Shown here in pieces: positions 2,401 to 25,900 of a stretch of 64,000 nucleotides of DNA. The notes under the pieces are model-generated. The model saw only the letters and a list, made by a program, of their open reading frames with translations, was not told where the DNA came from and ran no database searches. The number at the start of each line of letters is the position of its first letter. Positions within the stretch are counted from its first letter, which is position 1. A program made the position numbers and the translations under genes. Origin of the DNA: Fragilaria crotonensis (Eukaryota; Bacillariophyta; Fragilariophyceae; Fragilariales; Fragilariaceae); the NCBI GenBank assembly GCA_022925895.1, contig JAKSYS010000051.1, forward strand, positions 1-64,000, given 5' to 3'.

Positions 2401-3830
2401 TGCACTGGGAGCCTGGTGCCAGCACGCGCCACGTGTTGCACCTGTACTTGTGCAAGCCCGTGTACTGTCACCTAATCGAGCCGGCCATCACCTCTGGAAG
2501 CGTACTGGAGTACTGTCTTCCACTGAATACTGGTACTGTATACGGTACCAGCTTTGCCCCTCACAACTCATTTGCCATGACGACAATTGCAATACGGGCG
2601 ATGTCGCGACTAAACGACTCACCACTACTGTTGTGTATCATACCTTCTCTAGATAACAGACTACGAGTAGTAATATTTAATATTGATACGGCAAATTGCA
2701 AATCCAATGGTAGAAACGACAGTGCTCAGCAATCCGAATCTGGCGAGAACAGCGCACCAACAGCTACGGTAGCTAGTAGAGTAGATGAAAAAGGAACTCA
2801 AAGCGGAATCCTACTTGGTGTTCAGTAGGAATCCTTGTCGTAGAATTTAGTAGAAATTTCCCTTGTTTAAAGTCAAGCCGGATCTCTAATCTCCGATTTT
2901 ATTTTGAGTTTCGCATCCACTAAATTTCCGTTTTATGATAAGGGAAACTTAGTGGAAACACGACTCTACCCGGATCTCCCTATTGGGTCTTGCGTCTTGC
3001 CTCTTGCCAATCGTGCTACGTACACGCATACGGAGTACGGTATGATACTAGATCCGACTAACTGGCACTCTAATTTCGTAATCGTGACATCATAGGAATC
3101 CTGGAAATTGGCTTCGTAATTTTTGCAAAACGAATTTCTGCACATACATGTGTGTTACATTGACCGTTTGACAAAATCGGTGCCTGCCCGGTTGCCACAT
3201 ATTAGTTTGAAAGTTCGAACTGCTCATTGTGTCTGCTACTACATTTAAATGCTCATTTTTCCACAATTCATTACTGTTGCTCCTTTTGCTGCTGCTCATT
3301 GTCCTTTGACTGTCATTGCGTTGGTGTTGTTCCTTATCGTTGTTATTGCATCATTGTTGTTGCAAAGGACTAGCGGACAATCATCTTTGATGAACTGCCG
3401 AACCGACACCAATTGCGACGCTGCAATAGCCACTACCTGTCATACATCAGGAGTGGTGGTTGCGCTTGCAATTTTGGTTTGGTGGTGGAGTTTGCACTTG
3501 TGACAAGGAACCGCTGAACCAATACCAAAAGCAATGTGGCGCCTGTGATTTTACTTTGGAATTGAGACCGATTTTGACGCCGTGTAACGATACAGCTAGT
3601 TCTTTTCCGCTTCATATCCCCAAATCCGAGTAATGACATTGCCCATATTCTTGCTCAATCCGAGTAACGACTTTGCCCAAGAGTTTGTCCCGCATCATTT
3701 CTCAAGGAGAACAAGTTGTGCCCTAATGTTGACAAATCTGTTTGGGAGGGAGTATGAAATGGAAATTCATGGGAGGCCGTGACAACTGCAATGGGCATTG
3801 GGAACAATGACAGCAGCACTGATGCAATCA
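2401..3830. other. Intergenic, no gene recognised
   Basis: This stretch is AT-rich to neutral and contains several short open frames in conflicting directions, none with recognisable protein features or coding-like composition. The first 200 bases are rich in GTAC and related palindromes. A stretch near 3260-3360 is rich in TTG/CTG triplets and reads as a hydrophobic low-complexity peptide. I do not regard it as a gene. Confidence 0.5.
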
Positions 3831-3831
3831 T

Positions 3832-4285
3832 TTGCAAAATCCCTTGTTATCTTTCTGCACCATGTTTGCACAGCCAAACATTTGATATTTTTCACAAAGT
3901 TTGCAAAAACCTTTGTTATCTTTCTGCACCATGCTTGCACAAACCCTCGTTGTTTTTACATCATTTGCAAAAACCCTCGTTGTTTTTACATCATTTGCAA
4001 AAACCCTCATTATCTTTCTGCACCATGTTTGCACAAACCCTTGTTATTTTTTACGAAGTTTGCAAAAACCCTCATTATCTTTCTGCACCACCATGTTTGC
4101 AAAAACCCTTGTTATCTTTCTGCACCATGTTTGCACAACCCTTGTTTTTACAAAGTTTGCAAAAACCCTTGTAATCTTTATGCACCATGTTTGCAAAAAC
4201 CCTCATTATTTTTTACAAGGTTTGCAAAAACCCTCGTTATGTTTACAAGATTTGCAAAAACCCTCGTTATCTTTCACCAGCATTA
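3832..4285. repeat. Minisatellite with degenerate 30-40 bp units
   Basis: About a dozen imperfect copies of a unit containing TTTGCAAAAACCCTYGTTAT, then often CTTTCTGCACCATG and TTTGCACAA. Two sub-units alternate: one carries TTTCTGCACCATG and the other TTTTTACAAAGT or ACATCAT. The array is open in all three forward frames and in one reverse frame over much of its length because stop codons are absent from the unit. The long open frames here are therefore a by-product of repetition. No flanking element boundary is evident. Confidence 0.9.
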
Positions 4286-4320
4286 GTAAAACCTTTTTAG
4301 CTGTGGACCCAAATACATAA

Positions 4321-6045: not shown

Positions 6046-6210
6046 TTTGGGAGAATCTACAAGGCCGGTGTTCTACAGCGGGCTTCTATGTGTCCATGGA
6101 AAACAAATGCAACTTGGCTGGTTTCTTCGGATCGACTTGAATTCTGTTACAAACAAGAACGTATGACCCATACATGAGCTCATCGGATACGGTAAAGGCG
6201 CACGGGAGAT

Positions 6211-8939
6211 GTGAGTTTCTCCCCGCAGCGCAAGCAGATGCTGATGCACTGCATAAAGGGCACATTTGTCATCGGGCAGCACCATCCAGTAATCCTCACG
6301 GGATACAAGAACACGCCACTCATCGCCTTTGCCGCGTATCGACCGGTCGTCCTGGTGGCGGATCACACCCAGAAGATTGTGAACGTCGTGAGCGTTCCGC
6401 TGGACGAGGACAATGTGGGCCATGAAAAGGTGCTCACTATGCCCTTTGGTGTTACGCGGCTGCCTCCTCTGGCGGGAGAGGCCAACCAGCAGCTGCTCGT
6501 CACTATTTACCCGAACCCGTACACCGACATCGGCTCCATTCCCGTCATCGCGCCGACTGCATGGGCACAGGTAAGGCTATCACAAGAATCGATGAACATG
6601 ATGCGTCCTGTGCTGGTGCAGACACCCGTCGCGGCTGTCGCACCGAGCAATGATGTCGATATTGAGATGGTCGATGGCAATCAAGCGCAGGAGGAGCACA
6701 TGGAAGCAAAGCCCAAGGTGGTTGTGATCTATTCGGGAACGCAGGAATTGCCTCAATCAACCACCTTCCTTCAGGCCGATGTGGTGATCAAGGCGATGAC
6801 GACTCATGCCGTCTCTTCTACAAGACGCAACATGGCTATCTACCGCATCCGGGCTACCATCTGCCAGGTAGCAAAAGTGCTGATATAGATGCAGAGTTGG
6901 GAGAGCGTCATTTTCCCTCCCTCTTGCCAATGAAGGGCGGACGCGTGCTGATGGCTACTCGCTCGGTGCCCAAGCTGCACGAGTTGCAAAAGTGGTCGAT
7001 CGATCAGACCCGCGACGGCCTCTTCCATGGCACTGTCCCCGAGTTCTTCCTCGGCCCCATGGATGACCCCAGCCGCAGGGTTTCCACGTCGTACAAGGTG
7101 AACGGCCTGTACATCTACTGCGTCGACAATCCTGGTGCGGCAATTCTCGACAACTTAGACAGCCGCCGCAAGTTTCTCGCTGATATCAACACAAATACTG
7201 CTCACTGCGTATGCTGGACCAATGTCCATCGCACTCGTCTCTGTCTGCGTGGAGCAGCCGCAGCCGGAAGCGGCATCGGTCATTACTGCGAGTCCGGTAC
7301 CCACCACCACCACGCGTTACGTTTTCCTGGACGGCGTGCGACAGCCAGGTTTCCTCGACGTGGTGCCCGACTTTGCTGCCGAGGTAACCGAGGCGGTTGA
7401 GCGCAACCTCATCAACTGGCTCCACAAGGAGCGTCATAACAAGAATGTCATTGTCGACACAAGTCTGGGTATGGTGGCGATGGGACAGGAGCACGTGTCG
7501 TTTGATGAGTTCAAGCGTCGAGTGGCTCGTATGAGCCTTGACAAGGTCCTCGCCAACGAGACTCACATCTGCGACGTCATAACGCAAGCACAACGCCTGT
7601 TTGACGACAGTGCGCTCAAGCAGCATGCAGACGAGCTCATCCTCCTCCTGACAGAGACCAAGACGGTCCGTGTCTACATTGGCGAGGTCCTCGCCAAGTC
7701 GCATGTTGGTCTTGACGAGGTCGCATCGAAGAAGCTAATGGCCAACTTGAAGGGCAAGGTCAGGCTGATTCGCAAGGCGATGGGGAATCTGGCCCAGAAG
7801 CTTGGCTTGGTTGTCTCCAAGAAGAAGCAGTCGTCAATGAAGTTCAACCTGGCTCAGTTACAGAAGAAGCTGCTCATCAGAAGCAATGTCAATCACGCCA
7901 AGAACATGACGCTCGAGGACTTCGAGGAGCTGATGGATAAGACATGCGGTCAGACGGGCATGCTGTGGCTCAATCTCGACACCAACGTGCTACATCGCCT
8001 GCTCAAGGCCGTGGGCGCGTCAACCTTCACAAAGCTGCTGTTGCAGCCTCTTCAGCCACTCATTGAGTACCGCAATGGTGACTTTAACATGGATGCATTT
8101 AGCATCGGCTTGCTGTTTGGACAGACGGCCGAGCAATGCCTGGATCCCGTGCAACCCAAGATCAAGGACTCGGTCGTCACCAGTCTCCCAGTATCGTCCA
8201 TGTCGTATCAAGGCCTACGCACCAGCTCCTGGTTCTTCCCACTCCTGGACGAATTCAAAGAGCTCAAGGATCCGTTTGGCGTGCGCTGGGTCGACAAGAA
8301 GGCCAACGAGTCAGACATCGCTTCGCTACGAATCCTGGCGCGCGGTACACTCACCAATGCCGCGGCCGTACGTGATCTGGCCATCCACCTCAAGCCTAGC
8401 GACAGCCAGATCGCGTGGCTTTTGGTGTACCTGTCTATGGGTGCCATTCAGGAGCTCATCGTTCGCAAGGGCGCTGCTACTGCCTAGTACATCAAGCACA
8501 AGTCAGTGGCGGCGGTTGCTGATGCTGAAGCTGGAGGTGATGCCATGCAAGTCAATGTTGTCGGGTCGTCTTCTGTTAATGAGCAAGTACAGATCAACTT
8601 CGATGACACGCTGTGCATCAACATCCGCTGCATGCTGGCTCACATCCTGACTAATTACTGCATCGGGCGCCAACAAGCCGCTGTCAATGGTGTGGCAGCT
8701 CTTCACCAATAACCCGCGACCGGATTTACCGACAGAGGATTTTGAGTGGGGCGTATATGCCAGCAACGTGGTTCAGTACGCCATGTTTACCGGATGGAAC
8801 TTGACGCAACTCAAGCAAAACGTACGCGCACTGCTGGTACGTCAGCTTAACCGCTTCGTGGTCAAGGCTACAGAGCCATTGCGGTTCCTGCGCAGTGCCG
8901 ACAAGCGCAAGGCCGGAGAATTGAGGAAGGAGCGCTCAT
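6211..8939 (+). pseudogene. Unrecognised degraded gene, 5' portion
   Basis: A GC-richer stretch with strong codon-like composition, mainly in two long open frames (6211-6888 and 7222-8487), with further coding-like pieces at 6897-7210 and up to 8939. It is broken in several places, roughly half a dozen over the whole region. The protein pieces are rich in Leu, Val and charged helices and have no signal peptide or membrane segment. I recognise no domain. Composition and style resume on the far side of the inserted transposon at 17773-18704, so that insertion most likely split one long gene. A host gene, an old virus-derived gene or a mobile-element gene are all possible. Confidence 0.55.
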
Positions 8940-8981
8940 CAGGGAACACAAATCTCTGGTTTATCCATTTTAATGTAATAT
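8940..8981 (+). repeat. Left terminal inverted repeat of the 8.8-kb transposon
   Basis: CAGGGAACACAAATCTCTGG continues through about 8981 with a degenerate match to the reverse complement of the right end. The first six bases and CAAATCTCTG are identical at both ends. Confidence 0.8.
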
Positions 8982-9433
8982 TCTACCACATAATAATGTG
9001 TCGACCAGAGTTTTTTTTAAAACATATATGTATATTTTGAGTCATTATGCAAGTGCTTATCGTACGTTGAAGATCCAAATTCTCGGACATTCTTTTATAC
9101 ATAAATATTTAGATTACACATCATTTTATCCCTAAATACTGTCTGTTGCAAATATTACTTTGGAAGTTTCAGTTCCATTCCTCTTCTTCTCCATCGGTGT
9201 CTTCCTTCCATAATCGTGACTTGTGCACTGAGTCGTATACTACATACTCACCGTCTCCTCATTACTCACGCGCCAATTTTTCCTTTGTGTGATGAGCGTC
9301 AAATGCTAGTATTACGACTACCAGGAGGCATCATTCTTCCTCATTTTTTTTCTGTACTTTGTCGTCTGTTGTATGCTTTATATTCATTGATTCCAACAAA
9401 GAAGCATCCCTGCTGCATTTCCTCGTTAAGAGA

Positions 9434-12080
9434 ATGTTTGTTTGCTACAACATGAACTGCTACTCGCAGTTCCGAACCGAACGCGGTTTACAACAGCATT
9501 TGTGGCACAGTTCTGCCTGCAAGGACTACATGTCGGAACAAAGGCATACTGATGCTGGCATCGAGACCATCAATAGTACACGGCGTCAAGCATATGGAGT
9601 TCAATGCACACGCCTGAACCATGAAATGAATGCCGAATTTCCATCGTATGCTCCGTATGAAGAATTTCAGTATGGTGCAGCCGATGACTTTGATGGTGAC
9701 GACACATCGGCACTTGATGACATGTACGGCCAGTTAGATGGCTTTGCCTCATCAATTTCTGGTCTAGAAAATGTCTCTCCATCTGTTTTACATGGAATCA
9801 TGGAACGCATGAAAGCCAGCGATCGCCAAAGCATCCTGAATTTGCAACATGATGTCGAACACAGAAATATTGTGGAACTACTAAAGATTCTGGAGGATGC
9901 CCAATGTCCCGACTACATGTTGCAGAAAATTTTGCAATGGGCGTACATTGCAAAATTAGATGGCTTTGACTTCAACCCCAAAGCTACAACAAGGAAGGCA
10001 AATATTGGGTGGATGTACCGGTGTCTGGAACAGTCACATCAACGATTGCCTCATGTGATCTCGACAACTCTTGAGGACCAAGAGGCAGCTCAAGACATCG
10101 TGTGTTTTGACTTCGGTGTTTCTCTTTTTGTCAATGCTGCAAGATGATGAACTTATGTTGCCGCAAAACCTTGTGATCAATCGGGACGATCCAACTTCAA
10201 TGTATCATCCAAAGGATGGCAAACTTGGTGAGGCAAACAGCGGTCAGCGCTATCGTGACCTATACAATCAATTGATCACTCCAGGAAGAAATCAGCTCCT
10301 AGTTCCGATCATTCTTTACCTTGATGGAACCGCCATTGACAGCAAAGGTCACATCGAAATATGTCCGGTGTCGTTCACAACTTCTTTGTTCACGGAGAAA
10401 GTCCGCAGAGACAGCGGTGCATGGCGTGTCCTGGGTTACGTCCCCGACCTGAACCGCGGACGATCAGGTGCCATGAATCAATTTGCAAACAGCACTTCCG
10501 AGGAAGGAAAAGGTAGAACAACTCGTAATTTTCACAAAGTGATGGATGCCATGATGAGGGGCATGGTCGAAGCGCAAGCTGGCAAAGATTGTCGACTGAA
10601 GAAGGTTCCTTTGAAACTTTGTGGGAAGTGGATTGTCGTTGATATCGTTTGTCCTCTGCTCTTCGTCATCAACGACGGCAAGCAAGGGGATCAACTTTGT
10701 GGCCGCATGAATGGACATCACAGTAGTATGAATCGTCATCATCGATCATGCGACTGTCTCTTTGACGATCTTGACAATCCAGATGTTGAGTGCACTTTTC
10801 TTGATGTCGACACGATCAATGATATCTGTCGCAACGGCTCCGACGACGACCTTCAGGAACTCACAATTTACAAGGTTGATAATGCCTTCAACCGCATTCA
10901 GATGGGGCAAAACGCTCATGGTATCTTTATGTGCGCTGTCATTGATGTCATGCATACTATACAACATGGTATCATCATGTACTGCCTCGAATCGTTCAAG
11001 AAAGGGATTAGCAATGAATCACTGGCAAAGCTTGATGGAATGGCATTTTCCTTTGACAAGACCTGTCGTCAAACTATACGATCTAGTTTCCCACGGACTG
11101 ACTTCTCACGTGGAATCACAAACCTCTCCCAGGTCGAATGTTCTGAACAGTCCGGCACTCTCTTCCTGCTTGCGGCCCTTACAATGCAAGTTGAAGGATG
11201 GCATCTCCTCGAGAGACACTTCGCAGACATGGAGGCTGTTTTGGGAACAATCGAATGCCTTCTGTGTTTTGAGGCTTGGCTGGATCAGTTCACATTTTGG
11301 GATGTCAACGATACAACTGGTGAGGCGGACAAGGCTGAAGCTGCAATTGCTTCTCTTATGCGCCTCATCGTGAAGTATCTTCCGCGATTGAAGGGCAATG
11401 GGTGGAAGGTTTCAAAATTTCATGAGATCAAGCACATCGTCCGCTTTATCGGTGTGTTTGGTGCACCCCGTGGCTACAATGCGTCCCGTCCTGAGGAGCA
11501 TCACAAAGCGCATGCAAAACGTCCCGGCCGACGTTCACAGAAGGACATGAACACCATCGACCAGCAGTGTGCGCGCAGAATTGCCGACACCATTGTTATT
11601 GACACCATGCATGGGTTGTTCCAAGAAAGAAATGTTCTTGGGAGTGTCGACAAGAACCGCATTGACACTCCCACTTATCGTCCTCTGTATGTTGGCATCA
11701 ACACTGACGGTGACAATCCCGCAATAGAAGAAGGCCGTGGAACAATGTATTGCATCAGGTCGTTTCGAGATCCCGAAAATGGTGATCATTTGGTACGAGA
11801 CGTCAAGTTCACCACGCAAACAAGAGGACCCATGCATTTGGAGGACAATCTTTCGATGTTCATCATACAGTACTATGGCTCCTCCGACCTTGATGAACGA
11901 GGGGAAGGCAGCATCGCGTGCTGCACAGAATACCACAAGACTGATTCCATCACGAAGGAAAAGATGATATGCATTCGCTGCCATCCCAATTTCAGAGCCA
12001 AGGGATATCCATGGTACGACTGGGCACTTATCCAGTTTGAACTTAGTACAGGGGTGAAAAGGACTTTCCATGTCGTGTAG
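9434..12080 (+). CDS. CACTA/Plavaka-like DDE transposase
   Basis: Putative cut-and-paste transposase of the 8.8-kb element. I take the ATG at 9434, which places a CCHC-type zinc finger (CYNMNC, then H and C about 13 and 20 residues on) at the very N-terminus, as in Plavaka-type proteins. About 220 residues in, the frame passes to a second one; a 40-bp GT-AG segment at 10104-10143 would join them as ...DIVYDELMLPQ, but it is short for an intron and a frame slip is an alternative. The catalytic part contains LVPIILYLDGTAIDS (likely first Asp), a GYVPD block, FVINDGKQGDQLCGR (likely second Asp), followed by a His/Cys-rich motif and IDVMHTIQHGI. The rest is intact to the stop at 12080, so the element may be young. 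The family call rests on motif order, not on an alignment. Confidence 0.75.
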
Positions 12081-12352
12081 TGGCTTGTGTTCCAAGACAA
12101 ACTGACAACGGATTCTCTTTGACCTAATCGTACAAAGCTGTTACGAACCAACCGGTCGCGAGTCGTTTCTCTTCACCGAGTGGTCGTTCAGAAAAGACTT
12201 CCATGTTGTGAGTGCAACCGCACTGGTCGCCTTATGCCTCGTTCTTTGCAGCAGTGACTTGAATGGAGATGTCCTTGTCGTAAATGACAGGGACAAATGG
12301 CCGTCATACTTCTACGAAGCTGCAAACGTAGAATATAACATGCACGACTAAG

Positions 12353-14335
12353 TTAGAACCCAGTTTTCTGCTTCTTCCTTGTTGCAATTTCTCCATCAAG
12401 GCTGGATTTCTTGACGTTGACGTTTGAAGTCCGTTCGCATGCACCGTCTCGTTTCTCAAGCATCGCTCGTCCCCAATACCATCCCAACCATCTCGTCGGG
12501 CATCCATCCTTGGGAACAGGGCCATCGTCAGGATCAGCATCCTTGATTGTCGGTGCAAATATCTCGTCCTCATCCGAAGGCTCCTTCTCATCGCCTAAAA
12601 TTCGTGAGCGCTCCTCATCGGTGTATGCGAATTCCTCCATCTCTTGCATCATCTTCGCCCTCCTACGCCCTGCATTTACAAGGCGTTCCTTTGCGCAGGT
12701 GAAGGTGCCATACAGGTGATTGAGCGATCCTTTCCCGGAACCCACAACATTGGTTCCCACACCGTCAGGTCGTGAAAGCGAAGTACAATGCCGGATTAAA
12801 CGACCATCCCAGCTGATGGCCGTGCCGTGACGAAGTTTGATGGCAACACCCTCGAAAGCCCTGCCGTCAACCGAAACTCCATGTAGGTTGGGCATGACAA
12901 AATACCAGTTGTCCGCCACACCTGGCATCTCCTCTGTCCAGACACTGAACCCTTGGGATGCATCGTTGCTGTCGAAGTGCGATGCATTCGCAAGATCAAC
13001 TGACATGTCGATGGAGCCTCCAACACGATTGCCCTTGACATCACCGGCCATGACAGCAGCAGGTCTTACACCGGCGTCTCCCTCTGTGTCCTGAATCACA
13101 GACAGCACATCAGGGAAGACAACACTTCCAATTCGTGCAAGTGCATGTACAAATCGTCTCGATAGCTGCGAGGAAACCTTCTTCCCGACAGCATACTCCG
13201 CAAGGGTCATGCCATCAAGCATGACTCGTTCCAATCGGATGCATGGCACCAACATCACCCTGGTCTGACCTCGCATGGCCGGTGCGGACGTGTCTCCTAA
13301 TGAGTGAGTTGTGCATCGTGATCAGGGCAGCTCTCCAACAAAGTAGGGCCAGCCCTCGTCACCCCAATACATCTGCTCCAGTTCTGGGGAGAGGAGGTTT
13401 CGCACCATCACAACTGACTTTCGATTCATGTACGTTCCAATCGGTGCGATGTCAACAATGATGTCAACATGAGGGGCAGAAACGCCGTCGATGACAAGGC
13501 AGTCACCAGGAATCTGCTGGTGCAAACAACCTTTAGCATAGTGCCTTCCACCAGGTCTCGCAGACAGTGCAGAAGCCAGTCGTTCGTTGAAAGCTTGGCC
13601 ACGATCTGCGTTCGGCCAAGCAGCAATGTTGTGGCCACCAATGACATCGGGCGCCATGCGTGGACCTTCGGAGTCAGAGCACTGACTCGCCAAATATACA
13701 AGACGTCTCTGAAGCTTTGGAACAATACTTGTCGATACCCTCCAAATCGACACTCGCCCATCGGGGACATGGTAATTCCGTTCTTGGGCAAGTCGCTTTA
13801 CATATCCACCGACGCCAAACGAAAATCGACCGTTGTAGGGAGCCACCAGAGCATCCTCTTGAAATCGGAACCAACTTGCATCAAGCTGGATGTGGGCGTT
13901 GTTGCAACCCACCTCCGACCGACGACGCTCACGTGCACAGTAAAAGACGCCAGCACCGGGGAGGAAGGCGACCAATGTTCGATATTTGAAGTCCACGTCA
14001 TCCACGAGATCGCCATCACCATACGCTCGCACCATGACAACAGAGTCCGGGTCAGGTTCAGCGACGTCATCGTCATTCCGTGGGGTGACAATTCTACGGT
14101 TGAGGATGACGTCCATCAGAAAGAATTCCGAAAGGTCGTCGCGTATCCCAGGGCTCGGAAACATCTCATCCATTGAATTGAGCTGACATACCCTGTACTG
14201 AGGCCCGAAACCCTCCTTAAACCATCGAACAGGAGTTGCACACAAACAACCGTCATCGCCAGCCCTTGCCCTTCCTTTGTCATTGCCTCTTGGAATCGAT
14301 GCTCCATCAACTCTCGCCCCCGAAGGGGGATGCAC
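12353..14335 (-). CDS. Transposon accessory protein with 2OG-Fe(II) dioxygenase-like domain
   Basis: Two long stretches in one frame (14335-13322 and 13276-12353) are separated by a single in-frame TGA with no other stop nearby, together about 660 codons. The C-terminal half has the look of a double-stranded beta-helix dioxygenase: a SHFDSND block (HxD-like iron ligands), a WYFVMPNL strand, KLRHGTAISWDGR, and RHCTS (distal His), followed by NHLYGTF. After it come an acidic linker and a basic tail ending RKKQKTGF (possible nuclear signal). The N-terminal half is unrecognised. The gene faces the transposase tail to tail, 270 bp apart. Nucleic-acid-modifying dioxygenases (TET/JBP) are known to travel with some fungal transposons. 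That this protein modifies DNA is inference only. Confidence 0.55.
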
Positions 14336-14607
14336 TTCACGGCAACCCTCAATGCCATTGAGTGAGATGGCAGGAAACTCCGCTCCGTACGAACTCGTGG
14401 CATGCCGAAACCTCCGTCATTCTCTTCATCCACGCCCAACACTCTTGGGTTATTTCCCAGGTTCATCACGCTGGATCTGCAAATTGAAGTCCGCCCACGT
14501 CTTGAAATTCGAATGTTGTCGAAGTTCCTGATCATGCAAAAGTATGTCCAAGCTATATGGCAGGGACAGAACGATGATAATCAGGTGGAAGCAAAAGATA
14601 GATTTGT

Positions 14608-14728
14608 TGTCGTCAGCTATATGGCAGACCTCAACAAAGCAACTGTTGCTTGTGGTTTTCTTCAAATGGCGGGTGCTTTGCTTTGTTGTCGTCAGCTATA
14701 TGGCAGACTTCAACAAAGCAACTGTTGT
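14608..14728. repeat. Direct repeat, two ~46-bp copies
   Basis: A segment containing TTGTCGTCAGCTATATGGCA followed by GACYTCAACAAAGCAACTGTTG occurs at about 14606-14651 and again at 14682-14728, with one base difference. It lies inside the transposon, upstream of the minus-strand accessory gene, where repeats could bind transposase or act in that gene's promoter. Confidence 0.8.
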
Positions 14729-14986
14729 GAAGTGTTCTTGCTTGTAAATGGTGTTGTGATGTGTTGTTGCAGTGAGGACGACCTGAAATCAACAAAACTT
14801 GTGTATTTCGCTGAAATACTGAACGACATTTTCGGCGAAGTACAGCCGTGGTACAAAATGTACTACTACTACGTACGAGAAAATCACGGGACGCATGGTC
14901 AAAAATACTTAGCAAAAGTGTTTTACCTGCTACGTAGTTCCTCAGTACCAAATGCACGGCAGCGAAGAAGGTCCAAAGCATACTAG

Positions 14987-15736
14987 GCTATCCGTAAGAA
15001 GATAAACGGTTGGACGTATCGCTTATTTATACACATATATGAACACTTTAAGGAGTATAACATTGTGCGACGATATTCCTCTAAGTAAAAATATAGTTCC
15101 TTTGCAGAGACATGCGAGAGCCTGCCGGTATAACTCGCTGTCGTATATTTGACTGCCTATTCATGTACATACATATGCGTTTAGTAGCGTATAACGTATA
15201 AACATATGTTTTAAAGTACAATATGAAAATACAACGGTACACAACGATCATATATATTTTGAACGTAGCTACTTAAGAAATTGTATGTTTATCTACGCAG
15301 CATTCAAACCAAAGCCTTCGCCATTTCACCAATGTATATCTAAATATGCGTTGAACAGTTTATTCTGCATTTGTATATAAATTTTAATTTACATTATATA
15401 AATATTAAAGTATATAAGATACATACATATTTGAAACGAAACAACTTTTTTCATTTATAGATTATTGTACAACAACACCACCACAGCATCAGTCCATTCA
15501 AAAAGGTCGCCACCACCACTAGAAGTCACCACACCAGTTTGATTACTCTTACTCTTTTTGCCTTCTAGTAAGAAGAAGGCGTTGTTGCATGCATTGAAAC
15601 CTGGATTAAAGAACATAGCTTTGTTGTGCCATATAGTGTGACATTGCTGAATTCTGCTACGGTTACCAACCGCTGTCGCATAGCTGCAGAAGGTAAGGAG
15701 GTGAGGATTTGTGTGTTGATATCATTGCGGTGCATC
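14987..15736. other. AT-rich spacer inside the transposon
   Basis: No gene is seen. The stretch is strongly AT-rich from 15000 to 15460, with many TATATAT and CATATAT tracts. It then passes into a CACCACCA-rich leader just before the third transposon gene. It separates two divergent accessory genes and presumably holds both promoters. Confidence 0.5.
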
Positions 15737-17453
15737 ATGTCGTCGTCCACAGTGCGTCAGCGCACAAGATTACTAAGGGGTAATGCGCAAGGTGCAGCAC
15801 AAGGGAACGTGAATACTCGGCGGAACCAGGCAAGACCACAACCATATCCTGATGAGTCACCACGTACAGCAGCAGCAAGATTAACGCGCAGCAGAGTAGC
15901 ACCTGGAAACAGTCAGACAACTCCTGTGAGCACTGAAGCGGCGGCATCGGTTTCAACAGCAGTCATACCATCACCAAATACAAGAGGTGCAGCTGCCAGA
16001 GAGGCGGCGGCGTCGGTTTCAACAGCAGTCATACCATCACCAAATACAAGAGGTGCAGCTGCCAGAGTGGCGGCGGCGTCGGTTTCAACAGTCATACCAT
16101 CACCAAACACAAGAGGTGCAGCTGCTCGTGCCAGTTCGTGTGCTGCTACAGGGATACCAGGTCCATCAGCACCTGATATCCCTGCAGGAGGCCGGCGTTC
16201 CCGTGCTGCTCCACATGGCAGTGCCCGACGTGTTCCTACTACTACTGCTGCGCAAGCTCCAGCACCAGGAGCAGCAGCTGTTGCTACTGCCCGTGCCTAT
16301 GCAGGCGTAGGCATAAATGCTGCACCAGCAGCAGTTGTGCCTGCAAACCTTGGACAAGATTTTGTTGGTGAAGCGCTTCTTGCTCAACGAGGGGGTGGAG
16401 TTGCTATACAAGGTGGCGGAGCAACAAGGAGGAGGCAAGGCGGACAAGGAGGACAACGCAACACTGTTGCAAGAAGTGCGGATAAGTTTGCAATTCAAAA
16501 GTGTGTGAAGGAATATGTGTTCCCCAAACAAAAGTTTGTGACTGATGGCGACCTAGATTTCAGCAACAACGAAATGTCCATTTGTCGATGCATGGCGGCG
16601 GTGCTAGATGTAGACAATCGTAATATTGAGAACTGGTGGGAGACTGCAAGGAAAACAGTGAAAGAGTCGATATATAGGCACAGGAACAACACAATAAAGA
16701 AGATAAAAACAGTATTCCAAGGTAAGATGGTTGCGAGCGTCCATTTCAACCATTTAATTCTGAACTTCTAACCCTGAGTGTGTACTGCCTTCTTCTCCTC
16801 GATACACAGATATTATACTGCCAAGGAAAGGCAGATTTAATGAAGTCTTTAGCATGGACCGAATCATAGCATTGAGAAATGACGCTTTGGAGGGTGAAAT
16901 CTACATGAACTTATTGGACGACTTGCTGAAGACTGTGGTTGGAGCAACCAAATTCAAGGAGAATAGGTGCGAGAAACATCTAAGTGAGTGGTTCACTGTC
17001 ACAGATGAGGCATTCCTCCTCTTGTGTCTTGAAAATTACTGGCAACAATGGCATTACGAATGGATGGTTAACAGAAATGGACCGCCCGCCGACGAACCTG
17101 CACCTGAAGTCATTAACCCACGGTACACGGGCAAAACAAGGGGCACCAAGCGAAGTTGGTCAAGGGAAGGAATGGAGCGTTTCAATAACCTGGCTGTATT
17201 GGTCTATAACGACAGAAGGGAAAGGGGCGAAGAGTTCGATCAGTGGTTCCTTCGGGAAATGATACAATCATACGGTGATCGTAATCGAGATGCAGGAAGG
17301 GAAAACATCGAGGCAGAAGTTGTCAACGCAGCACCGACAATTGTGTATAATGAATTCAATATGCAGCTCCTGATCGCCCATGCACAGCACCAACAACTGC
17401 AACCACCAGCTCCTGAAGAAGATGATGTCGACAGAGTTCAAGAAGCCGTGTAG
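15737..17453 (+). CDS. Spliced transposon accessory protein, Ala-rich N-terminus with helical C-terminal domain
   Basis: Start chosen at the ATG at 15737 (MSSSTVRQR), because the open frame upstream is low in coding character. A GT-AG intron at 16722-16809 (GTAAGA...ACACAG, 88 bp) joins the exons in frame as KTVFQDIILPRKG. Three near-identical 19-22 residue repeats of AAASVSTAVIPSPNTRGAAA cover residues 76-135, followed by more Ala/Gly/Arg-rich disorder. The second half is globular and helical, with WWETARK, WFTVTDEAFLLLCLENYW, and SWSREGMERFNNL. The last two resemble blocks seen beside transposases in stramenopile elements, and I infer a DNA-binding or structural role in transposition. No exact family can be named. 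The two exons give about 540 residues. Confidence 0.65.
16722..16809 (+). other. Spliceosomal intron in the transposon accessory gene
   Basis: Donor GTAAGA and acceptor CACAG. The sequence inside closes both flanking frames with stops, and removal restores one continuous frame through a split GAT codon. Confidence 0.8.
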
Positions 17454-17730
17454 GTTCGTGATACCTGGAAGTAGAACTTTAGAAACAATAACGCACAGTA
17501 CAGTACTGAAACAGATTGCAACCCCCCCAGAATTGGTCGTAGCAGCACTGAAACCGAAGAAGAAGTTGTGAATATTTCTCAATCAGCTATGAATAAAACT
17601 GAGTACGACATAACAAGTATTTCTCTACATTTTGTCCATATTTATTTTGAATTGTAAATAAAAATGTAGATACTTGTAAATATGAATATAAGAAACATTC
17701 GGTGAAACATTACAGAAATATTTACAAAGT

Positions 17731-17772
17731 CATGTAAATTAAGATGTACAAATCAGAGATTTGCACTCCCTG
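17731..17772 (-). repeat. Right terminal inverted repeat of the 8.8-kb transposon
   Basis: Reads CAGGGAGTGCAAATCTCTGA on the minus strand. It pairs with the left terminus at 8940 and differs by three bases in the first 19. Confidence 0.8.
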
Positions 17773-18704
17773 ATGCTGTCTGCAGCTGTGTTCCTCCTAT
17801 TACCCGCACTATAAGAAGATTGTCGAGTACTGCCAGCAGGTCCGCAGTACGGAAGGCGCAAAGGTGGATCATGACAAGCTGCAGGAGTTTGCAGAAGTCT
17901 TTTCTGCATTCAACAACTCTCGCGTTCGTAGGGGGAAGCATCTTCATGCTCATGACGCACGCCAAGGATGACCTGATTAACCACACCTACGTCGATGAGC
18001 TCATCATAGCAATCCTGCACAAGTGGGACAACTACGACTGCAAGCTCAAGGTGGCGATCTACGACTTTGCTGTCGCGCTGGATGTAGAGAACGCCGACAC
18101 AAGTGCGGTAACAGAGCGGATCGTCGCTTTCCGTCGTGCTCTCAACAAGGTACGCACTGCGGCACTCCGGGCCGTTAACAAGTCTAAGGATGCCCAGGAG
18201 CCGATTGTCAATCGCGCGACGATTCTTGCTGCGCTACTCAAAGCCTTGCAGCACACACCTGCTACGAAGAAGAAGCCTACGGCTGTCCAGATCGAGAAGG
18301 CTATCTTTGCGGGTGAAGGAAAGTATGCAAAGTGCTGGCAGCCGTTTGATCCATTTCCCCAATATCGTCCTTCTGAGGAGCAGAAGCATCTACCGAACAA
18401 GGCGGGCACAAAATCGTATGCCAGCGCCGCTGACATTTTGGGCGAGGCCAACTTTCAGTGTACCATCAAGGCGCTGTTGATGGCGCCGGGTGCTGATGAC
18501 TTGCTTGAGGTCCTAGCCAAGGCAAACAACTTCAACTCGACGCAGGATTACTTATCGCTCGCCAGCTTTGCTGGGTTCGGCAGATCTTCCGCCGAGATTG
18601 CTGAGAGCACTTCTCTACTCTTGAACGAGCTACTCAAGAGGTGGTCTGTTTCGGGTGACGAGGCAGAGCAGCAAGCCATCGTGAGTCTAAAGCATATGTA
18701 TTAG
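17773..18704 (+). pseudogene. Unrecognised degraded gene, 3' portion
   Basis: GC-richer coding-like sequence that begins at the transposon's right edge and closes with a stop at 18704. Its longest stretch (from about 17940) encodes a helical, Ala/Lys-rich protein tail with segments such as YVDELIIAILHKWDNYDCKL and IEKAIFAGEGKYAKCWQPF. There is no membrane segment and no motif I recognise. Same strand, composition and style as the 6211-8939 part, of which it is most likely the continuation. It too is broken. A virus-derived origin cannot be excluded and would best be treated as a fossil. Confidence 0.55.
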
Positions 18705-19675: not shown

Positions 19676-19991
19676 GCCATACACCATACATGATTTCCCA
19701 TGTTGTGTGCGAATTGATCATCTCATCATCTCCCGTCATTGACAAAAATGACGTGCGAACTACAGTACGGTGCTGTATTACCAACCGTACTAAGTACTCG
19801 TACTCGCATACGGAGTGTACATGCAGACCTGCACTAACGTATCGTAACCTGACGTCAAGACTTGAGATTCGTAAACTTCACAAACCTGAGAGTGTTGTCA
19901 TTGTCGTTTACAGCATCGAGGTGGTTTTGGTTTTTAACTACCTGCCCTGCCCCTCTGTCCCTTCCCTCACCGTCCGTCTTCGTCTAGAAGA

Positions 19992-22900
19992 ATGAGTTCT
20001 TCCAGTCCTTCTGCCCCAAGGACACCGAGGGCAGGAATTTCTTCGGAAACCCTCCGCAAAGTGGCGAAAGGAGGGCGAGGAGCCGTCGACTTGGTGACGG
20101 GCAAAGCCAATGTCGAGTACTTCTTCGACCCGTCTCTCGTCATAGAAGAAGACAAGTATGGGGACACCTCCGCTGGTAGTAAGACTCCGTTTCGTAAGGA
20201 TCTGAATGCAGCTCTAGCTCTGGAAGCCATGGCGGATCCATTGTTGAACTCGAAGCATCTTTTCATGCCGTGCACAATCATCAAGACACTCGATGGCCCC
20301 GAAGGCACGGCGCCTACTCCTCGTCCGACACTGGTCAAGACCATGGATGGAGCGCTTCACAAGATCTCAGACGCTACCAAGCTCGTTCCGCTGGAGGATG
20401 ATGACTACATCGGCGTCGACGACGTCTTACACTTGTCTCACGTTACCGAAGCGAGTCTGTTGCATGCGCTCCGCTTGCGCTATCGACGCGATGACATTTA
20501 CACCAATGCCGGTCCGATTCTTATTTCAATTAATCCATACAAGAATGTCATGATCGGATCCGAGTCAATATACAGCGAGAAGCGCATGATGCAATATCGA
20601 TCCAACAAGCGAGATATGCCGCCTCATTTATTTCATGTCGCGGACCAGGCCTATTCTCATTTAATGGACAGCATGGACGTTGAACCCATGGATTCGGATG
20701 CCAGTCTTGTCGGCCGTCATGTCGAGGTGCGCAACCAAAGCATCATCATTTCGGGCGAGTCCGGTGCTGGCAAGACAGAGGCCACCAAGATTATCATGCA
20801 GTATTTGGCTCGAATCACGCAGAAAGCAGCGACGCCAAAGGCTGGAGGGAGTTCTTGTGCATTGTTGAGCCCGGATGGTCAACTCATTGCGGCCCTCGAA
20901 GACAAGGTTTTATCGTCGAATCCTCTTTTGGAAACGTTTGGAAATGCACGGACATTGCGCAATGACAACTCGTCCAGATTCGGAAAGTTTATCCATATCT
21001 ACTTTGATGTTGCGAGGGGTAAGATACAAGGCGCCAGCATCTCAAATTACCTGTTGGAAAAGACCAGAATTTGCACGCAAATCGATGGCGAACGCAACTA
21101 TCACGTTTTCTATCAACTTCTTGCGGGATGCTCTGAGGAACTCCTTACCGACTTTGGTCTTGCTCGAGGTATGACCTTTTGCCTACCTGGGTAACTCGAC
21201 CCATTCGCACCTGGATGTTGGTGGCCTTGTGGAGACGAGAGAGTGTCTGATGCGCTTGGGTCTGAGCCCAGCGCAACAGAATGGTGTATTTGGTATTGTC
21301 GCAGCTGTCTTGCATATCGGCAACATCAAGTTCGATGGTGGAGGGGAAACACCAACCACAGTCTCAACTCCAGAAATACTCCAGCAAGCGTGTAGACTCT
21401 TGGGTCTAGATGCAACTCGAGTCCAAGAGGCCATGGTGACCAAACTATTGACCATCAACGGCAAGACAATTCAGAAGCCGCAATCGGTGGAACAAGCCGA
21501 GGAAAAGCGGGGACGCTTTCGCCAAAATGACCTACTCATGCCTGTTCCTCTGGTTGGTGCAGAAAGTAAACGAAACTTTGCAGATACTACCGTCCAACGA
21601 CGTCACGGAAAAGACGGGCTTCATCGGTGTCTTGGATATCTATGGTTTTGAAGTCTTTGATACCAACGGCTTCGAACAGCTATTGATCAACTATTGCAAT
21701 GAAAAGTTGCAACGCCACTTTAACAGACACTTGTTTGAAGTGGAGCAAGATATGTATGCGTCGGAAGGGGTGGATTGGACGTATATCACATTCAACGACA
21801 ACCGTCCTTGCCTAGAGCTTTTGGAGGGTGCTTCAAACATTCCTGGCATCCTCAATATGTTGGATGATTCCTGGGGAGGAATGGGTCCGACTGCTGAGAA
21901 GGATGTCAAATTTGTTGCTCAACTGCATAAGCAGTATGGTACCTCCAAAGGCAGTAAGGACAGTACTGGTCATGAGTATTTCAAAACGCCCAAGTTTGGA
22001 ATCGACACTCAGTTTGTCGTATGTCACTATGCAGGCGATGTGAAGTATACAGCTTCTGGTTTTGTCGAAAAGAATATGGACACCTTATCAAATGAACTTA
22101 AGGAATTGGGCATCACATCCAGCAATGAGTTGGCCAATGCTATTTTTGGGAGCGCCGCAACAGACACAAGCAACCAGCGATCTTCGATTCGTGGCATTTC
22201 GGTCGGATCGCAGTTCCGGGCGTCACTGCAGTCACTTATGAACGATTTGGAGGCAACTCAACCGCACTACATTCGATGCATCAAACCCAATTTCAATAAG
22301 TCACCTTCATCTTTGGACGCTGGTGAAGTATTGAGACAATTGCGATACTCCGGAATGATGGAGGCGATTAGAATTCGTCGGGAAGGATATGCGATGCGCG
22401 AGAGCCATTCTTCTTTCTTCAACAGGTTCAGTGTTCTTCTGGATCCGAAAGACGTCAAAGAAGGGAAAGGAATCGGACAACTAGTGCAGGTCTTGTCCAA
22501 ACGCTTGAATGTCACAGATGCCGATTGGCAGATTGGACATTCCAAGATTTTCTTACGCCGGGAATTGGCGAATAAGTTAGAACGTCTCGCGAAGTTGAGG
22601 GTGCTCGCTGCAGGCCGAACATTGACGCGCTTTGGTCGCCGCGTGGCTCACAGAAGAGCAGCAGCTTTGTTGTCGACCTGGCTCAAGTTTCGCCTCTTTC
22701 TGATTCGCAAGCGCCGCCGTTATAATGCCGCCACCCTTTTGGCTGCGTGGTTTCGCTCGTACACGCAGCGACGCAGTTTTGTACTGATTCGTGAGAATAC
22801 TATCAAAGTGCAATCCCTACAGCGTCGGATTAGTGCGAAGGCTAGGGTGAGGAAGATTCGCGATCCTTTCGGAGACATGACTTATGATCAACTTAAGGAG

Positions 22901-25900
22901 CTGCTCAAATCAGAACGAGAGCGATTGGAGGGATTTGTGAGAGACAAAATGTTCCAAGCAGCTGCCAAGTTAGAAAAGAGAGTCGAAAGCATCAGTGCGG
23001 CTGTCGAAGCCAAGAGGCCAATGACCAGGCGGTTGTTGGACGAAATGATATCTGAAGTCGAGCTTCAGTTGGAAGATGCGGTCATGCGAAAATCTTACGA
23101 AGAATGCGGTCCCCTGCAGACTCAGCTTAACGAGTTGACTTCGAAGCGCGCTGACCTTCCAACCATGGAGGAGCTTGAGAAGGCTGTGAAGGATGAGGAA
23201 GCTATGGTTGCTGCGGCCATCGCGAAGCGCGACTTTGCACGCGCTGCGGAAGGGCAAGAGCGAATCGCCGTGGCGAAGAAGAAAATGGAAGACGCCATTG
23301 CAGCTGAAGCAGCCATTGCGGCCGAAAAGGATGCAACAGAAGGTGCCCTTTCCCTTGGAGAAAGCAGTCGCTTTACTTGTCGAGCAGAACTTGAGGAGGA
23401 AATCAATTCTATCAATCTTGACATCGACGCAGCGATTGATGGCAAAGATTTCACACGAGCATCGACTCTTCAAGGCAAACTGGACGAACTAGAGAAGCTT
23501 CGCCCATTCTTTCCAACTCTTGAAGAACTTGAATCAGACCTCGCAGAAGCTAGAAAGAACCAGGACGACGCTATAGCGAGAAAGGACTTTGCACTGGCTG
23601 AGAAGTTGAACGCTACCGTGGATAAATTGGAGGAAAAGGTCAAGATCGAAAAGGAACGCTCACCGCAATCTGCTGCGGAGGAGGATGGGATCTCCGGTCC
23701 AGTCAGCATTAAGACTCCCGATGGAGAGGAGAAGGTCTTCGAATCTAGGACCGAGCTTGACGAGGCTATTAAGGAATACGGCAACCAAGTGTCGAAGAGT
23801 GTTTCTGCGAAAGAGTTTAAGAAAGCCCAGACGTTGCAATCATTCGTTGACGAGCTTGAGGCGTTGAAGCCTCGACTCCCATCCCTCCAGGAGCTCATTG
23901 CAGAATTGAAAACGGTCAAGGCTGAAATGGATACGGCCATCGCCAAGAAGAATTTCACTGACGCCGAAGTTTTGCAGCACAAAGTCGATGCGCTTGAAGC
24001 ACGCGTTGAAAACGAGAAGAGCAAGATGCCGGCACCACCGCAAACACCAGCGAGGGCGACTGAAGCAGCATCGACCAGATCGGTATCGCTTATGTCTGTA
24101 ACGCCATCAGTGAGAGCTAGCTCCATAGTGGCAGTTGCCGGTGGGTACAAGACTCCTGGAAAGACTACTACGCTACCGCATCCTTCAGATGTCAATATTG
24201 GGAAGCAGCCAGCGAAACCGGTCGCCAAGCTCCGTCCGTTGAAGCCAGTCCTCACGACTGCTGACCAGACCATGGTAGAAGTGTGCAAACTCATGGCACT
24301 GAAGCGTTCTAGAGCAGCCCTTGTTCCTCGAGCAGACGGTGGCGTCGCCGGTATCATCACAGACAGCGACATTACTAGGCGCGTTGCATCGAAAAATCTT
24401 GACCCTGAAACCACTATGCTTGCGTCGGTTATGACTCCGAATCCAACATGTGTTGCCATTTCAGATTCCGCCAGCGACGCTTTGTCAATGATGATCGAAA
24501 ATCGCTACAGGCATCTTCCTGTTGTTGACGAACAGGGGCGCGTTTGTGGCTTGCTGGATATTGGGAAATGCCTTAATGATGCCATTACTAAGCTTGAGAA
24601 GAGGGAAGGGAAAAACACCAGCCCCTCGACTGGTGCGGTCCTGCAAATCACAAATCTGAAAGGCGGTGCTCACGCAGCCGCGTTGCAGGCCCTTCTTGGT
24701 CCATTGATGTCTAAGGCTCTGGGTGGTGCGAAATCACCTACACTTCGCAGCATTCTTGCCGGTAGGCCTGCAACAATAGTTCCACCGCACGCCACCGTTT
24801 TGGAGGCCACCCAGATAATGGCCGACCACCGCAAAGCTGCCTTGATCGTCATCGAAAATGTTCTCGTTGGCATCCTTTCATTCAAAGATATTGTAAGTCG
24901 AGTCATCGCCAAGGGACTCCCTATGGACTTGACGGTTGTGTCCGATGTCATGACTCCAAACCCCGAATCCTTGCTGCCTGATTCTACGGTACTAGACGCT
25001 TTGCAGTCTATGCACGATCACAACTTCCTGACGCTACCAGTGTGCGAGGCAAACGGACGTGTGGTGGGGTTGGTTGATGTCATGGATGTCATCTATGGAT
25101 GTGGAGGTTCGGAGGGCTGGCGATCTATCTTTGACGGCGCCATGGATTTCAGTGACGATTTGTCAGAGGTTAGTGGTGGAAGGAGTGTTGGCCAATTGAG
25201 CTACGGCGGGAGCGCTTCCGTGAAGAGCAAACCATCTGTTGCCGGAAAGACTGATAGATCAGTGGCGAAACTTCGTCCGAAGAAGCCCTTGATTTCATCG
25301 GATCAGGATAGTATCTTGTCAGTGACGCAAATGCTGGCGAATAAGAGAGGAGACGCTTCTTTGGTTGTGAACGCAGCTGGAGGGTTAGCAGGAATCATCA
25401 CCGACACCGATGTTACTAGGCGGGTTGTTGCCCAGAACCTGGATCCCAGTTGCAATTCTGTATCAAAGGTCATGACACCCAATCCCACGCTGGTTCACAT
25501 GAAGGACCTCGCTGTTGACGCACTTGGGATAATGGTCGAGAATCACTTCCGCCATCTCCCTGTCATTGACGAAAATGGGGCCGTCGTCGGTCTCCTCGAC
25601 ATTGCGAAATGTTTGTACGATGCGATAAGCAAGCTTGAGAAGGCACAAGAAAAAACAAGCAAGGCTGCGGAAGCTGCAGTCTTGCAAGCTGCTGGACTTC
25701 AAGGCGCGGATGGCAAACATGCAGCAGCGTTGCAGGTATTGCTTGGTCCGCTGATGATGCAAGCTTTCGGAGGCGAGAAATCACCCAAGCTTCGAACCTT
25801 GTTGGCGGGACGACCTGCTACTATCGTTAAACCATCGACTAGCCTACGCGAGGCTGGACAGTTGATGGCCGAGCGAAGGAAGGCATCTTTGGTTGTTGAT

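Follow-up and report, generated by a model that had tools for sequence, protein, structure and literature searches.

The 64,000-nt stretch of the Fragilaria crotonensis genome analysed here (the window; G000:C471:1-64000) contains an 8,839-bp element at 8937-17775, with termini CATCAGGGA...TCCCTGATG, in which a transposase gene, a convergent accessory gene and a spliced third gene stand in a fixed order. We read it as a cut-and-paste Plavaka transposon with PlavakaB-type termini that has spread recently in its host and would carry an anti-silencing oxygenase cassette, and we give this reading as a whole a probability of about 0.6. Genome searches refer to the 62.1-Mb assembly of 881 contigs, which are named here by number (C471 holds the window).

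Regarding the boundaries of the element, the inverted ends noticed in an earlier note on this DNA are real, and each of them, placed there at 8940 and 17772, lies 3 bp further out. Two 201-base queries, one starting at 8940 and one ending at 17772, did lead to further copies (14 left-end and 13 right-end matches), and both ends occur together on 11 contigs, where CAT directly precedes CAGGGA and ATG directly follows TCCCTG in 11 of 11 cases, i.e. outside the ends first proposed. Beyond this CAT...ATG, a 2-bp target duplication is found at eight of the nine sites that are completely read on either side (CT, TT, AC, GA, TA, AT, TG and TG); C43, whose right flank comprises only 6 bases, has TA/TA and stands outside these nine, and C650 was excluded from the test because its left flank is too short. 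Comparing the joined flanks of nine sites with the genome (403 matches in all) revealed i) an empty site for the C405 insertion at C171:77621-77763 (99% identity, 143 bp against 143 bp), ii) a 73-bp satellite around the C17 insertion, whose flanks together contain 10 units without an interruption, and iii) uninterrupted paralogous sites elsewhere for the C599- and C818-like sites (92-94%, length differences of 2-5 bases). CAT and ATG are kept in all copies with both ends, and from this, the 2-bp duplications and the empty sites the ends are set at 8937 and 17775; the same evidence rules out an AT duplication at a CATG target. The empty sites anticipated for this transposon are therefore present for four insertions, and for the window's own insertion site no spanning match is among the matches listed from the 403. 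The 73-bp satellite (L006, L018) is tandem on many contigs and accounts for the majority of the matches listed.

The arms of the terminal inverted repeat measure 41 nt each (Table 1), with a complementarity of 80%. With up to 2 mismatches allowed, the terminal-repeat pattern CATCAGGGANNNCAAATCTCTGG matches the genome 52 times and its reversed control 0 times, so that the inverted ends are not a product of chance.

Eight copies of 8.7-8.8 kb could be aligned, each with both ends and with matches to all three genes. Together with the empty sites of C405, C17, C599 and C818, they bear out the proposal of one mobile unit, and we regard it as practically certain that the element is a real transposon and a single unit. 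Identity among the copies is 98.1-99.9%, with C43 being closest to the window element (99.9%), and the window copy has 4 substitutions and 3 single-base indels of its own. The transposon has thus spread recently in its host, as had been supposed from the open genes. In bins of 500 bp, the window copy is 96% identical to the six copies other than C43 in the second bin, 93-96% in the last and 97-100% in between, and the left-most bin (window 8937-9440) drops to 90-92% between the C471/C43 subgroup and these six. The bins from 9,940 to 17,440 stay at 97-100%, and the left end looks as if it had been exchanged or evolved faster.

The gene order is also kept beyond the aligned copies. Terminal-repeat matches form 19 pairs with a spacing of 3-30 kb, and 14 of these enclose the complete gene set, ordered alike (C3, C17, C43, C76, C103, C170, C188, C230, C317, C405, C471, C526, C650, C764), including a C317 element of 26 kb with further insertions inside. 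The pairs on C30 and C599, in which a distant accessory gene (41% and 37%) is the sole match, are read as nested elements, and the C261 pair has no accessory match. Two shorter elements with the same terminal repeats lack an accessory match (C14; G000:C14:95160-101299) or have the third gene only (C295; G000:C295:127843-131507) and are likely non-autonomous derivatives. The distant elements C87 and C21 (about 10.0 kb each, ends CATCAGAAGGT...) have the same gene order, CATCAG..CTGATG termini and 2-bp duplications (CA and TG). Starting from the accessory gene instead, its first half as a query gave 99 loci after merging; with neighbours sought within 8 kb and in the expected orientation, 25 loci have both neighbours, 20 the transposase only and 8 the third gene only. 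With flipped orientation as a control, the corresponding counts are 1, 0 and 0, leaving 98 with neither.

Some of these results count against our reading. The C526 copy has mismatched flanks (AA/TG), the sole exception among the nine sites; none of the eight aligned copies retains an intact transposase frame, judged by the uninterrupted C518 transposase, or an intact accessory frame, judged by the uninterrupted C137 accessory protein; and 46 of the 99 accessory loci have neither neighbour in the searches made. The neighbour searches score best candidates only, so that the neighbour counts are lower bounds. The frame breaks of the eight copies are partly private and partly shared and may be due to decay or to assembly errors, and unbroken frames exist in relatives, both for the accessory gene (808 aa in C137) and for the transposase (1,093 aa in C518, 993 aa in C30).

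Besides the unity of the element today, our data also allow insights into its history. We compared six element groups over shared columns (222 for the transposase, 79 for the accessory core). The window transposase is 77.0% identical to that of C30 (second element, 105-107 kb) and 74.3% to that of C121, against 22.5% for C87 and 20.7% for C21, whereas the accessory core shows the reverse order, with 57.0% for C30 and 59.5% for C121 against 69.6% for C87 and 65.8% for C21. The accessory genes of the window and C137 are closer to C87/C21 in 2000 of 2000 column resamplings, and over the 15 pairs of the six groups accessory and transposase identities have a Spearman correlation of -0.03 (alignments of unequal length). 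The third gene is 49% identical to the window in C30 (at 112.6 kb, presumably in the C30 element that also holds the transposase), 45% in C121, 32% in C87 and 35% in C21, and therefore follows the transposase. As the accessory gene is closer to C87/C21 and the transposase to C30/C121, the pattern points to an accessory gene that was exchanged between transposase lineages. The three-gene set, first taken as a single unit, is one now, yet its accessory gene does not track the transposase, and it has probably been modular over time; the mismatch suggests that the cargo behaves as a cassette.

An ancient duplication followed by differential loss would account for this mismatch in place of an exchange, as would a changed rate in the C30/C121 group, and the comparison base is small enough (six groups, 79 and 222 columns) to keep such a history in play. 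We consider it somewhat unlikely, because the ordering is kept in every resampling and because the ratio of nonsynonymous to synonymous substitution rates (dN/dS) of the accessory gene between C30 and C121 (0.17) is about that of the transposase between C518 and C30 (0.18), with no relaxation to be seen. An apparent absence of the accessory gene from Plavaka relatives at 31-39% identity (C5, C140, C147 and others) was discarded as a finding, the accessory searches having missed the C30/C121 type as well (L028, L031).

Between families there are signs of purifying selection. Five between-family comparisons of the transposase give a dN/dS of 0.08-0.18, and a single near-identical pair gives 0.03. 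For the first half of the accessory gene it is 0.11 between the window and C137, with synonymous sites near saturation, and for the second half of the same pair it is saturated; the third gene is saturated against C764 and gives 0.26 against C17 on very few changes. Five near-identical accessory pairs, in which changes are very few, have values of 0.3-0.9 and speak against this; a further such pair yielded no value.

For the accessory protein, the earlier note had proposed a convergent dioxygenase-like gene. The gene is convergent, and the label is plausible from motif reading, with no profile match to go with it. In the window copy the gene has one frame change and one in-frame stop. Its HxD...H lies in the C-terminal half of the protein (within 12599-13273), and in an alignment of seven rows from the six element groups H-x-D, the distal H, WDGR-x-I-R-H and their neighbours are invariant in 7 of 7. 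The distal H follows about 60 residues after H-x-D in a G..I.WDGR.IRH pattern, and a K/R-containing stretch comes next. H-x-D, a distal H and then a K/R stretch form the usual layout of 2-oxoglutarate/Fe(II) oxygenases. The metal triad of HxD and distal His by which TET/JBP proteins are recognised is thus present, as a pattern that is common to many 2-oxoglutarate oxygenases. Based on these motifs, the accessory protein is probably a 2-oxoglutarate/Fe(II) oxygenase.

This assignment has to stand against a series of negative results. Pfam scans of the window accessory pieces and of relatives gave no significant match, the Tet_JBP profile (PF12851) has 0 matches in the whole genome at an E-value of up to 0.1, PDB profile searches returned nothing relevant (best E-value 0.12, unrelated short stretches), and an AlphaFold2 model of the protein, with a predicted local distance difference test score (pLDDT) of 28.6, is uninformative on its fold; NCBIfam and PHROG have no match to the C137 relative either. 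In consequence of the lacking profile support and the uninformative structure prediction, we withhold the TET/JBP label. The same lack of profile or fold support, together with the length of the gene and an N-terminal half that is conserved as well, would suit a protein that is no oxygenase at all, with an HxD...H belonging to another fold, e.g. that of a structural or DNA-binding transposition factor. Such a protein is unlikely in view of the invariant oxygenase layout, and a similarity that departs from that of the transposase is unexpected for an obligatory transposition partner.

If the accessory protein is an oxygenase, methylated DNA is the target nearest at hand. The host genome has 13 matches to DNA C5-methyltransferases (PF00145; best E-value 5.9e-67). 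Among the private C-to-T and G-to-A changes of the eight copies, 13 of 25 are at CpG, compared with 836 CpG positions among 4129 C/G positions (p=4e-4, one-sided binomial), and this pattern fits methylation of the elements. It is weakened by the fact that 41 of the 77 private substitutions come from C230 alone, so that the CpG count leans on one copy, and by a CpG observed/expected ratio of 0.87 in the element, close to the 0.92 of the remaining window, i.e. there is no strong CpG depletion. In the mechanism that we propose, the transposase would be a DDE enzyme, using the terminal repeats to excise and insert the element, and the third protein might serve as its DNA-binding partner. The product of the convergent gene, as a putative 2-oxoglutarate/Fe(II) oxygenase, would target element DNA that is methylated or carries another modification, and thereby lower silencing of the element by the host, and its cassette would have been swapped between Plavaka transposase lineages.

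We regard this anti-silencing role as an open bet, slightly on the doubtful side. The same transposon could carry an oxygenase that, instead of removing 5-methylcytosine, acts on a histone or another chromatin protein or on RNA, or serves thymine/cytosine hypermodification; the motif alone does not fix the substrate, the long N-terminal half is conserved as well, and other activities are left open for divergent fungal types in a study of such elements (Kojima, 2025; PMC12730594). With DNA C5-methyltransferases in the host and an excess of CpG transitions in the copies, we hold another substrate to be improbable. More broadly, and tentatively, the anti-silencing cassette may represent an oxygenase lineage of diatom Plavaka elements in its own right, DNA-modifying and distinct from TET/JBP in sequence, with about 100 or more copies, which counters cytosine methylation and is traded across transposases of about 20% identity, with the third gene following the transposase. 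Should the cargo act on methylated DNA, self-protection of transposons from silencing would reach beyond fungi, to an alga with the same type of terminal repeat. Given the near-identical copies and the empty sites, both transposition and the function of the cargo lend themselves to direct tests.

The transposase predicted in the earlier note is present, in open frames at 9296-10147 and 10059-12080. On direct reading, its N-terminus has a C2H2/C2HC-like finger, followed by a DDE-like core. The Plavaka profile (PF18759) has 91 matches in the genome, many above the curated cut-off, among them C140, C259, C5, C131 and C147, which are 35-38% identical to the window transposase and through which it is linked to Plavaka. 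The transposase of the distant C87 element matches PF18759 with an E-value of 4.4e-5, which falls short of the cut-off. Against the link stands that the window transposase alone matched no model in the Pfam scan. The CATCA..TGATG termini, shared with C87 and C21, and the 2-bp duplication agree with fungal PlavakaB, which has the same termini and duplications of 2 or 3 bp (Kojima, 2025; PMC12730594). The CMCT clade of that study, which takes in both Plavaka and CACTA/EnSpm, is marked by D, D and E residues, the last two of which enclose C(2)C and H(3-4)H. Candidates are LDGT and NDGKQGD for the two D residues, HEIKH for H(3)H and PEEHH for E; as C(2)C the C140 relative has CRAC, and the window protein reads HRSC at this place and has another C(2)C (CLLC) that is not kept in C518 or C140. 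Judged from these relatives and termini, the element very probably belongs to the Plavaka group.

The pairing of CACTA and Plavaka in the earlier note therefore holds for its second half. An ordinary CACTA/EnSpm transposon would share the clade, the inverted repeats and the DDE-like transposase, and is nevertheless very improbable, as the termini are CATCA..TGATG in place of CAC..GTG, the duplication has 2 bp in place of 3, relatives exceed the PF18759 cut-off and no CACTA transposase model of Pfam matched any transposase piece scanned. Two further readings, unrelated genes that are neighbours by chance and an integrated virus, have the presence of non-transposase genes as their sole argument and can be dismissed, since exact ends and gene order are common to many copies, empty sites with shared ends refute both, and IMG/VR pattern scans, which detect close relatives only, found no relative of the transposase, accessory and flanking proteins tried; one GTDB scan gave no result.

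Among known systems, fungal PlavakaB elements including their TET+ families come closest, as they share the Plavaka-type transposase along with the termini, and in some families a dioxygenase-type cargo that moves between lineages (Kojima, 2025; PMC12730594). All TET+ Plavaka elements fall into PlavakaB. In contrast to these, the host here is a diatom and not a fungus, the cargo has no detectable Tet_JBP profile match, and it keeps HxD, while the fungal PE type listed for Plavaka has HxE. The element here also has a third, spliced gene, which may set it apart. The fungal Kyakuja-Dileera-Zisupton (KDZ) TET+ elements also combine a transposase and a putative DNA-modifying dioxygenase in one unit, with a transposase that lacks sequence similarity to Plavaka and duplications of 7 bp (Kyakuja) or 8 bp (Zisupton) (PMC12730594). 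CACTA/EnSpm elements are likewise multi-gene elements with inverted repeats, but their CACTA termini and 3-bp duplication are not seen here. En/Spm carries a TNPA-like helper. Outside fungi, Plavaka elements are described as giant repeats in Amoebidium (PMC11244446) and as EnSpm-Plavaka in the green alga Auxenochlorella (PMC12633428), in the available text with no dioxygenase cargo and no mention of diatoms. The word diatom is absent from the main text of Kojima (2025; PMC12730594). In the literature covered, which takes in few subscription papers and not Repbase, the available portions describe no dioxygenase-carrying diatom transposon, and the same holds for those of PMC12477816, PMC11244446, PMC12633428, PMC12344493, PMC9587614 and PMC9998398.

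The third gene is spliced, as noticed before, with one predicted 88-bp intron, and reads in one uninterrupted frame once spliced (Table 1). NCBIfam and PHROG scans of four proteins returned only two PHROG matches, both to the C87 third protein, at E-values of 0.44-0.46.

Table 1. Features of the transposon and of the interrupted gene (window positions)
Feature	Position	Strand	Remark
Interrupted target gene, left part	7159..8934	+	
Target duplication, left copy (CT)	8935..8936	.	
Left terminal inverted repeat	8937..8977	+	begins CATCAGGGAACACAAATCTCTGG
Transposase gene	9434..12080	+	start codon inferred; one frame change near 10.1 kb in the window copy
Convergent accessory gene, putative 2-oxoglutarate/Fe(II) oxygenase	12353..14535	-	start codon inferred
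Third gene, exon 1	15737..16721	+	Ala/Pro/Arg-rich N-terminus, then conserved region; start codon inferred
Third gene, predicted GT-AG intron	16722..16809	+	frame continuity only
Third gene, exon 2	16810..17453	+	conserved region with WSxEGxxRFNxL motif
Right terminal inverted repeat	17735..17775	+	ends TCCCTGATG
Target duplication, right copy (CT)	17776..17777	.	
Interrupted target gene, right part	17778..18704	+	

The element was said to sit in an older degraded gene. When the flanks are joined, one frame reads across the insertion point, and the gene has breaks on both sides of it. As the transposon copies contain scattered single-base indels, these breaks are either true decay or partly assembly error, so that an older, degraded gene is possible, with assembly error as the alternative. 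A genome search with the left flank piece 7159-8484 gave no second match, and in the interrupted gene (6196-8934, 17778-18704) the frames 6196-6885, 7159-8484 and 17706-18701 are without a Pfam match.

Elsewhere in the window, short tandem-like repeats at 3758-4320 (LSAPCLHKP / CKNP-like when translated) are open in three plus-strand frames. The region 19938-28393 encodes a myosin head (PF00063), which lies in two frames and runs on into a frame of 2,313 aa that contains 14 CBS-domain stretches (PF00571), a combination that looks unusual, and 1463-2089 encodes, as suits a diatom host, a fucoxanthin chlorophyll a/c protein (PDB chain 8j7z, E-value 2.4e-101 over 175 residues).

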